The notes below the pieces were generated by a model, which was not told the origin of the DNA, did no database searches, and saw only the letters and a list, made by a program, of their open reading frames with translations. Of a stretch of DNA of 32,005 nucleotides, positions 8 to 1,459 are shown in pieces. A program made the translations under genes and the position numbers. How positions within the stretch are numbered: the stretch's first letter is position 1; the number at the start of each line of letters is the position of its first letter. Source of the stretch: Sphingomonadales bacterium (GTDB lineage: Bacteria > Pseudomonadota > Alphaproteobacteria > Sphingomonadales > Sphingomonadaceae); assembly GCA_025356275.1 (NCBI GenBank), contig JANXUK010000046.1, positions 1 through 32,005 on the forward strand, in the 5' to 3' direction.

Positions 8-766
8 ATGACCGTCCGCATCCGCATCATCCCCTGCCTTGATGTCCGCGATGGGCGCGTGGTGAAGGGCGTCAATTTCGTCGATCTGATCGATGCCGGC
101 GATCCGGTCGAGCAGGCGCGCGCTTACGACAAAGCCGGCGCCGACGAACTCTGCTTCCTCGACATTTCGGCCAGCCATGAGGGGCGCGGCACCTTGCTCG
201 ATGCGGTGCGCCGCACCGCCGAGGTGTGCTTTATGCCGCTGACCGTCGGCGGCGGGGTGCGCAGCGCCGAGGACGCGCGCGCGCTCCTCCTCGCCGGGGC
301 CGACAAGGTCGCGGTCAATTCCGCCGCCGTCTCCCGCCCCGAAGTGGTCAGCGAAATCGCAGCCCGCTTCGGCAGCCAATGCGTCGTGGCGTCGGTCGAT
401 GCGCGCAAGGTCGGCGATCATTGGGAGATCTTCACCTACGGCGGCCGCCGCGCCACCGGGATCGACGCGCTCGAACATGCTGTAAAGCTGGCGAAATTGG
501 GCGCGGGCGAATTGCTGGTCACCAGCATGGACGGCGACGGCACCAAAGCCGGATACGACCTCGCCCTGACCCGCGCGATTGCCGATGCGGTGCCGGTGCC
601 GGTGATCGCCAGCGGCGGGGTGGGCAATCTGGAGCACCTCGTGGCCGGGGTGACGGAGGGGCATGCCAGCGCGGTTCTGGCCGCATCGATCTTCCACTTC
701 GGCACGCATACGGTGGCAGAGGCGCATGCCGCCCTGCGCGCGGCGGGGTTGCCGGCGCGAGGATAA
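8..766 (+). CDS. hisF: Imidazole glycerol phosphate synthase, cyclase subunit HisF
   Basis: HisF is the (beta/alpha)8-barrel subunit that uses ammonia from HisH to convert PRFAR into imidazole glycerol phosphate and AICAR, in cytosolic histidine synthesis. At 252 residues it has normal length. Visible family signatures are [18 protein letters not shown] near the N-terminus, with the catalytic Asp of CLDV, then [15 protein letters not shown] with the second catalytic Asp, [13 protein letters not shown], and the phosphate-binding VIASGGVGN. The start lies seven bases into the window behind GGGAAATG, so upstream his genes (probably hisA or hisH) should lie just outside. hisE follows about 380 bases downstream, separated by an unrelated small gene. 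Identification is secure. Confidence 0.97.
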
Positions 767-848
767 GCGTCGGATTTATTAACACATCGTCGCGCAGGCT
801 CCGGCGCGTTAACCTTTTATTCCGCGGAAATACGCCAAAATCCGCATC

Positions 849-864
849 TGGCACGCGCATTGCA
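849..864 (+). promoter_or_regulatory. Sigma-54 (RpoN) -24/-12 promoter
   Basis: The sequence TGGCACGCGCATTGCA matches the sigma-54 consensus TGGCACG-N4-TTGCW at every fixed position, with the invariant GG and GC separated by exactly ten bases. Transcription would begin about base 874, giving a leader of about 20 bases that carries AGGAG (883-887) eight bases before the ATG at 896. Promoter, ribosome site and start are therefore all correctly spaced. Sigma-54 promoters need an enhancer-binding activator, whose site I could not identify in the 80 bases upstream. Confidence 0.8.
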
Positions 865-895
865 TTTACCTTTGTCGGTATCAGGAGTGCATGAA

Positions 896-1072
896 ATGCG
901 TTTGATTTTGCGAATTGGTGCGGTGATCCTTGTCGGCGGCATGGTGATTGAGCCGGCGATGGCGCAGAGCGCCGTGGTGATGGCGGCTTCGTCCGATCTG
1001 TCGCTGGTGGGCATGGGTCTGTTCGGGCTGGTGCTGGGTCAACGCGGTGGGCGCAAGCCGGCTGCGGCCTGA
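896..1072 (+). CDS. Small secreted peptide with a degenerate PEP-CTERM-like tail
   Basis: This encodes 58 residues. Residues 1-23 look like a signal peptide ending in AMA-Q. About ten residues later comes a hydrophobic segment (SLVGMGLFGLVLG, about 36-48) followed by the basic cluster QRGGRK and a short tail. The signal / hydrophobic helix / Arg-rich layout is that of exosortase-sorted PEP-CTERM proteins, in which Pro-Glu-Pro precedes the helix. Here the corresponding place reads AASSDL, so the recognition motif is missing or decayed. The start at 896 is chosen over an in-frame ATG at 860 because AGGAG lies eight bases before 896 and because 860 lies within or before the sigma-54 core. It may be an orphan CTERM anchor peptide or simply a small membrane peptide; its function is unknown. 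Confidence 0.6.
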   Translation: MRLILRIGAVILVGGMVIEPAMAQSAVVMAASSDLSLVGMGLFGLVLGQRGGRKPAAA

Positions 1073-1144
1073 GCGAAAGCCCTCTTGACCCGGACCTGAA
1101 CTGGTCGCATCCGGGCGGCCATGACTCCACCCCAAGATCATGCA

Positions 1145-1459
1145 ATGGCGCCTGACACGCTGGTCCGCCTCGAAGCCACGATCGCCACGCGCCGCGCCGC
1201 AGATCCCGCATCATCCTATGTCGCCAGCCTCCACGCTAAAGGCCTGTCCAAGATCTCGCAGAAGCTGGGCGAGGAGGCGGTCGAAACCATCATCGCCGCG
1301 CTGGCCGAGGACCGCTCCGCGCTGACCGCCGAGGCGGCCGACCTGTTGTTCCACCTGCTGATCCTGCTGGGCGCAAAGGATGTGCCGCTTGGCGATGTGA
1401 TGGCCGAGCTGGACCGCCGCGAGGGCGTATCGGGCATCGCCGAAAAGGCCGCGCGCTAA
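1145..1459 (+). CDS. hisE: Phosphoribosyl-ATP pyrophosphatase
   Basis: HisE hydrolyses phosphoribosyl-ATP to phosphoribosyl-AMP and pyrophosphate, the second step of histidine synthesis. The all-alpha MazG-like signature is clear: SYVASLHAKGLSKISQKLGEEAVETIIAAL, continued by TAEAADLLFHLLILL, with the Glu-rich metal site in GEEAVE and the Asp of EAADLLFH. Starting at 1145 gives 104 residues, close to the usual length, and homologues typically begin only a few residues before the LxxLEATI helix. An in-frame ATG at 1121 would add eight residues without a better ribosome site. It stands alone as HisE, not fused to HisI. The HIT gene begins two bases after its stop, so they are co-transcribed. Confidence 0.94.
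   Translation: MAPDTLVRLEATIATRRAADPASSYVASLHAKGLSKISQKLGEEAVETIIAALAEDRSALTAEAADLLFHLLILLGAKDVPLGDVMAELDRREGVSGIAEKAAR

Follow-up and report, generated by a model that had tools for sequence, protein, structure and literature searches.

What is a small reading frame doing between hisF and hisE, when its product looks like an exosortase substrate with almost no cargo and no sorting motif, and a sigma-54 promoter stands in front of it? An earlier note on this DNA had taken the frame for the orphan target of a PrsK/PrsR regulon, either free of exosortase or using a variant signal. The window (the whole stretch of DNA that was analysed) is one complete contig of 32,005 bp from a genome of 3.18 Mb in 143 contigs, 99.76% complete. 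The peptide and its neighbours, which we take to be hisF and hisE, are laid out as follows:

8–766, plus strand: hisF (context), a 252-aa frame, used as a query for synteny
883–887, plus strand: ribosome-binding site AGGAG, read from the sequence
896–1072 (frame with stop), plus strand: putative cargo-less PEP-CTERM-like microprotein of 58 aa (MRLILRIGAVILVGGMVIEPAMAQSAVVMAASSDLSLVGMGLFGLVLGQRGGRKPAAA), with ATG at 896, recognized as an open frame and by its orthologues
896–964, plus strand: signal peptide, residues 1–23, predicted to be cut after AMA (AxA-like pattern in the alignment, by inspection)
983–991, plus strand: A-A-S, residues 30–32, in the place of Pro-Glu-Pro in aligned relatives
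995–1051, plus strand: C-terminal helix, residues 34–52, then R50, R53 and K54 (AlphaFold2 helix; invariant columns)
1121–1459, plus strand: hisE (context), a 112-aa frame starting 48 nt past the peptide stop

The small frame does split hisF from hisE, and its product is made up of a signal peptide, a helix and an Arg cluster, both as the earlier note had it; about six residues separate the signal peptide from the helix.

PEP-CTERM proteins (TIGR02595 / PF07589) carry a near-invariant Pro-Glu-Pro. The window peptide has AAS at residues 30–32, and neither NCBIfam nor Pfam models matched it at E<=10; at that threshold PF07589 matched 10 and TIGR02595 7 of 14 aligned members of its family. The remainder of the layout is present, with a signal peptide, a helix and a basic cluster at the extreme C terminus (alignment and predicted model, by inspection). 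SDLSL is retained directly after AAS, and G41, G44 and G48 of the helix are invariant among the 14 aligned members. The AlphaFold2 model of the peptide, of modest confidence (mean pLDDT 72, pTM 0.33), contains helices at residues 2–31 and 34–52. Searches with the peptide found no family in PHROGs and only four weak matches in PDB, the best with E 0.13. Orthologues at the same locus have an intact PEP, which establishes descent from a PEP-CTERM protein and agrees with the earlier proposal that PEP was lost here.

With the window peptide as query, matches came from 14 of 98 genomes, all from the same genus and its own among them; with the 14 aligned members, 241 of the family's 397 genomes matched at E<=0.01. 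Since weak family-wide matches may be ordinary PEP-CTERM proteins, only loci whose flanks were read were counted. There were 102 of these: 14 from the window-peptide search, 28 from the 14-member search and 60 fetched, picked among the best matches. Two loci (L049 and L050) were left out as duplicates of L040 and L032, and L046, a match to a transporter-like protein, was dropped as chance. The peptide lies between hisF and hisE, on one strand, in 96 of the 102 Sphingomonadaceae loci, window included; at the other six just one flank was visible. Its frame is thus conserved in orthologues, and the word "orphan" does not apply to a locus found family-wide. A second sample, of 80 named loci fetched via HisE and partly overlapping the first, had the peptide between the two genes in 28 (profile score >10). 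The two best named loci of that sample belong to Novosphingobium, which is the probable genus of the window's organism. None was present in nine loci of that sample titled Mesorhizobium, Aquamicrobium, Parvibaculum and Phyllobacterium. Because it was also absent from many other sphingomonad records of the HisE sample, the peptide is widespread in the family, yet not universal.

A typical member consists of a signal peptide, about 5–9 residues, [IV]PEP, a helix with G-xx-G-xxx-G and Arg residues, and appears from its sequence to be a sorting tag with nearly no cargo. PEP or PDP is kept in 69 of the 96 loci and changed, with the helix retained, in 27 (scored by reading, one row corrected by eye); the changed forms are PEG, PEA, SEP, AEP, TEP, DAP and none. 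On the tree, which is poorly resolved and has one row mis-scored, PEP was replaced at least 11 times. On HisF+HisE+HIT the four PEP-changed sequences of the window's genus are not a single clade: L034 pairs with L035, and L033 and the window stand apart. Exosortases are mostly treated as cargo sorters; a nearly cargo-free substrate family kept at one locus across a bacterial family, with only the cutting motif changing repeatedly, makes a natural test of the tag's own role.

Two further variants were seen at this site. Several Sphingomonas and Sphingomonadales loci (L184, L192, L196, L207 and similar) have PELSD or PEASD and an altered helix, probably another erosion of PEP. At two of the 96 loci (L092 and L131) the tag carries a long Gly/Ser-rich stretch, so cargo can be gained or lost between hisF and hisE.

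A scan of the genome found the genes that the earlier note had suggested looking for: rpoN, PrsR (667 bits; cut-off 502.6), an adjoining PrsK (421 bits; cut-off 300) and exosortase XrtA with an EpsI domain (305 bits; cut-off 208). The motifs Cys-x-Gly, Asn-x-x-Arg and His-x-x-x-Gly named by Haft are readable in the XrtA sequence. The peptide is therefore not free of exosortase, and the change sits in the recognition motif of the substrate. A second, XrtV-like exosortase (306.4 bits, slightly below the XrtV cut-off of 313) and a PEPxxWA-type PEP-CTERM protein with a weaker neighbour are also encoded. Across the family, PrsR is found in 336 of 397 genomes at E<=1e-130 (335 over the curated cut-off) and an exosortase in 329 of 397 at E<=1e-10. 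The idea that PEP loss follows exosortase loss was rejected, since at the latter threshold 23 of the 24 scanned PEP-changed genomes have an exosortase, with G489 as the exception; the PEP-changed loci L033–L035 sit in genomes outside these 24.

With two exosortases in the genome, the peptide might be an ordinary substrate with a variant motif, cut near AASS by XrtA or the XrtV-like enzyme to release a tiny stub, perhaps secreted or EPS-linked. PEP was changed at 27 of 96 loci without loss of the gene, the PEG and PEA forms recur, and the names of curated models pair other exosortases with other motifs (VPDSG, VPLPA). However, AAS retains nothing of P-E-P, and the stub would be short and is variable in sequence; we consider such cleavage unlikely.

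The promoter region upstream of the peptide contains the following elements:

769–784, plus strand: predicted PrsR binding site, motif 1 (GTCGGATTTATTAACA), a match to GTCGG-N6-TNACA directly past the hisF stop
808–814, plus strand: GTTAACC element, 41 nt upstream of the −24 element (GTTAA/TTAAC is common to sigma-54-type loci)
849–863, plus strand: sigma-54 promoter TGGCACG-N4-TTGC, an exact match (TGGCACG at 849–855, TTGC at 860–863), with rpoN in the genome
875, plus strand: predicted transcript start, from promoter geometry, 12 nt past the −12 C (874 in the earlier note)

The exact sigma-54 site, the AGGAG and the ATG were thus read correctly before. Ahead of PEP-CTERM genes of Proteobacteria, the text of Haft 2006 (PMC1569441) places a motif 1 of 17 nt that ends in TTTACA, then a spacer of 62.8 +/- 10.6 nt and a sigma-54 motif, with motif 1 as the predicted binding site of the cognate activator. 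Compared with that text description, the window has the same succession of motif 1, a spacer of about 63 nt and motif 2: 64 nt lie between the end of motif 1 and the −24 element, and motif 1 ends in TTAACA where Haft has TTTACA. A terminator-like hairpin was predicted at 752–773, at the end of hisF (scan of 700–1250; 0.4 such sites expected in shuffles), and the GTCGG of motif 1 shares bases with its 3′ arm.

The earlier note had also proposed a check for further TGGCAC-N5-TTGC promoters. The core TGGCACN5TTGC matched the genome 20 times, against 4 for the reversed pattern; some of the 20 sites precede P-II, pspA and flagellar genes and many lie within open frames (by reading, without a profile search). 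The core by itself is hence weak evidence, and a lone core was rejected as sufficient proof of a promoter. The check succeeded with a strict composite pattern, GTCGGN6TNAC-N50-80-TGGCN7TTGC, with the reversed pattern as control. It has a single match in the window's genome, at 769–863 (control 0), and 92 matches in 61 genomes (control 1), with at least one in 36 of the 61. Among 29 of these 92 that were read in relatives, 15 have a PEP-CTERM-like protein downstream, judged by reading, and 14 precede other genes or are apparent chance matches; the hisF-hisE peptide accounts for four of the 15, retrieved without the peptide as query. A relaxed composite (TGGCN9GC) matched the genome 12 times against 9 for its reverse, a count that alone cannot part signal from chance.

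The lengths of the 92 matches, which include homologous and so non-independent promoters, fall into classes of 82–85 (n=20), 92–97 (n=55) and 103–107 nt (n=12), with five outside. Three classes about 11 nt apart fit an activator bound on one face of the DNA. By eye, the two spacing classes seem alike in how far the GTTAACC of the window and related loci stands from motif 1, and GTTAACC may for this reason be part of the activator site. Judged from these sequence features, the peptide is very probably a cargo-less PEP-CTERM microprotein regulated by PrsK-PrsR and sigma-54.

Sigma-54 sites before the peptide were scored at 92 loci, four of the 96 being omitted for a missing start or upstream length. 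Sites with at least 9 of 11 matches occur at 20 of the 92 loci (1.6% in shuffles) and with at least 10 at 16 (0.19%); at 37 there is no GG-N10-GC whatever upstream of the peptide. GTTAA or TTAAC is found at −43 to −40 in all 20 sigma-54-type loci, and motif 1 (relaxed pattern) in 19 of the 20 versus 7 of the 74 others. As a good sigma-54 site is absent from 74 of 94 loci, control by PrsR is not essential to the gene, and the distribution of the peptide is wider than that of its sigma-54 control. PrsR (E<=1e-130) accompanies all 14 sigma-54-type loci with scanned genomes, against a base rate that is itself high (336/397). No tie of PEP loss to sigma-54 control was seen: sigma-54 loci comprise 13 PEP/PDP and 7 changed forms, the others 56 and 20. 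The 13 and 7 correct the tree counts of 14 and 6: L099, scored wrongly by the pattern because of its tail, was moved. The count of 11 replacements predates this move.

The peptide is kept without a PrsR match in G129, G167 and G489, the last two also lacking an exosortase match, and further peptide-bearing genomes of this kind exist, e.g., G253 and some incomplete ones. At 10 of the 20 sigma-54-type loci (L040, L041, L067, L078, L100, L103, L105, L107, L116 and L132) the −24 T lies just 27–29 nt ahead of the script-chosen start codon, so that the transcript would be nearly leaderless.

The promoter could also serve hisE and the downstream HIT-family gene and tie histidine synthesis to the EPS programme, the peptide being a translated leader. 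The short 48-nt distance to hisE and the lack of a terminator-like site between peptide and hisE (scan of 700–1250) would suit this arrangement. On the other hand, the peptide is conserved as a protein even at loci without a sigma-54 site, and elsewhere such promoters precede PEP-CTERM genes distant from hisE. Service to hisE as the role of this promoter is highly improbable.

The explanation that we prefer, and hold as a whole to be moderately probable, is that PrsR induces a membrane peptide with one helix, which docks on XrtA and, in the window's genome, is not cut by it. PrsK-PrsR with sigma-54 would switch on the peptide alongside the exosortase programme. Export by Sec and removal of the signal peptide would leave about 35 residues, predicted to form a short periplasmic stub and one membrane helix whose Arg cluster lies on the inner side. 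Where relatives have PEP, the exosortase would cleave there and release a stub of about 5–9 residues; with PEP replaced by AAS, the helix would most likely stay whole in the membrane. The uncut product, made at all times when the PrsR regulon is active, might then be a docking partner or regulator of the exosortase, its helix giving feedback by binding to XrtA or the sensor. The helix is a better candidate for function than the freed stub, because PEP was repeatedly replaced while helix and locus persisted and exosortase remained in 23 of 24 genomes. Taken separately, the docking or regulatory role is tentative and we lean slightly against it. Counted against the main explanation are the many loci without a good sigma-54 site, G489 without exosortase, the overlap of motif 1 with the hairpin and a raised pN/pS of the window peptide.

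This last measure bears on decay, a real and serious rival of docking, according to which a former exosortase substrate lost PEP and is drifting, with the promoter as a leftover. For the window peptide pN/pS was 0.52–0.72 versus three PEP-changed or SEP relatives and 0.80–0.91 versus two PEP/PDP relatives, rough values with synonymous change near saturation; they exceed those of six of seven closer PEP/PDP pairs (0.24–0.38; 0.59 in the seventh). Decay would also suit a peptide that Pfam and NCBIfam PEP-CTERM models fail to recognize at E<=10, and in G253, which has no PrsR match, the peptide match contains an internal stop. Yet in the window the start, frame, signal peptide, helix glycines, Arg cluster and promoter elements are all intact, the promoter is the sole strict-composite match in the genome, and the repeated changes of PEP (at least 11, on the poorly resolved tree with its mis-scored row) left the rest in place, which makes decay quite unlikely. 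Similar flags in two other genomes, G340 and G429, were dismissed: these are just early ends, and L082 and L088 show both peptides to be complete.

The preferred reading of the window peptide, as a docking membrane peptide of the PrsR regulon, can be compared with small single-pass regulatory membrane proteins. These, too, are short, have one helix, are induced by a regulon and likely have a membrane enzyme as partner; the window peptide differs from them in being derived from a sorting tag, and we know of no homology between the two. A likeness is also found with PEP-CTERM proteins of PrsK/PrsR/sigma-54 systems, as far as the available text of two papers describes them (Haft 2006, PMC1569441; Aquincola pepA, PMC9850573). 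Shared features are the signal peptide, the position of the motif-helix-Arg tag, motif 1 and a sigma-54 promoter at matching spacing, and rpoN, prsK, prsR and xrtA in the genome. Unlike known PEP-CTERM proteins, the window peptide is nearly cargo-free and has AAS for PEP, and the hisF-hisE peptide has a fixed place between two genes, whereas the accessible part of Haft 2006 (PMC1569441) has mostly single-gene operons. The nearest experimental precedent found, in the available text of PMC9850573, is a PEP-CTERM gene that depends on rpoN1, has TGGCAC/CTGCTT motifs and had its start mapped. Within the accessible parts of both papers, the basis for exosortase regulation consists of promoter prediction and a single gene that depends on rpoN.

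Together, motif 1, GTTAACC, the −24/−12 elements and their phased spacing make a usable search pattern for PrsR regulons, which has already yielded a hairpin RNA outside the window. Nine of the 11 relaxed-pattern matches besides the window lie within open frames of at least 256 aa. Of the other two, L255 falls in short frames close to the end of a contig and L250 in no open frame:

G000:C37:19423–19517 and downstream, minus strand: predicted hairpin RNA beside grxD, behind a relaxed composite promoter match

At this locus GTCGGAAAAACTGACA begins 80 nt ahead of TGGCACGAACAATGC, and no gene comes next, but a strong hairpin (z −3.46), facing grxD. The block was found in 16 of 98 genomes, its own included (relatives L258–L272). 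In all 16 the block comes after motif 1, at 80–81 nt (14 exact, 2 with one base changed), and after a TGGCAC/TGC sigma-54 site. Rfam gave no match over threshold for the hairpin RNA, and rough duplex energies against five translation starts of the window carried no informative signal. Among the literature matches listed, judged by titles and abstract starts and with subscription journals mostly outside, no description of the hisF-hisE peptide locus or the grxD-side RNA was recognized. By its sequence context the hairpin RNA is predicted to be a second output of a PrsR-type sigma-54 promoter. That PrsK-PrsR outputs include products other than surface proteins, namely an uncleavable tag peptide feeding back on exosortase or sensor and this RNA, is a possibility that we regard as doubtful; if true, exosortase regulation would include a microprotein and a small RNA.

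The consensus of the RNA reads UACCCC-AAGCAGUCUCGAUAGAGGCGGGGCCG-AGUCUCC-CGGCCCCGCCUC. Nearly all variation in its 12-pair main stem preserves pairing; covariation is thin, as both sides changed in just two stem pairs, in one sequence each. A Nudix-type gene is near the RNA block in all 16 genomes, and in 12 of these grxD was found as well (gene names by reading).
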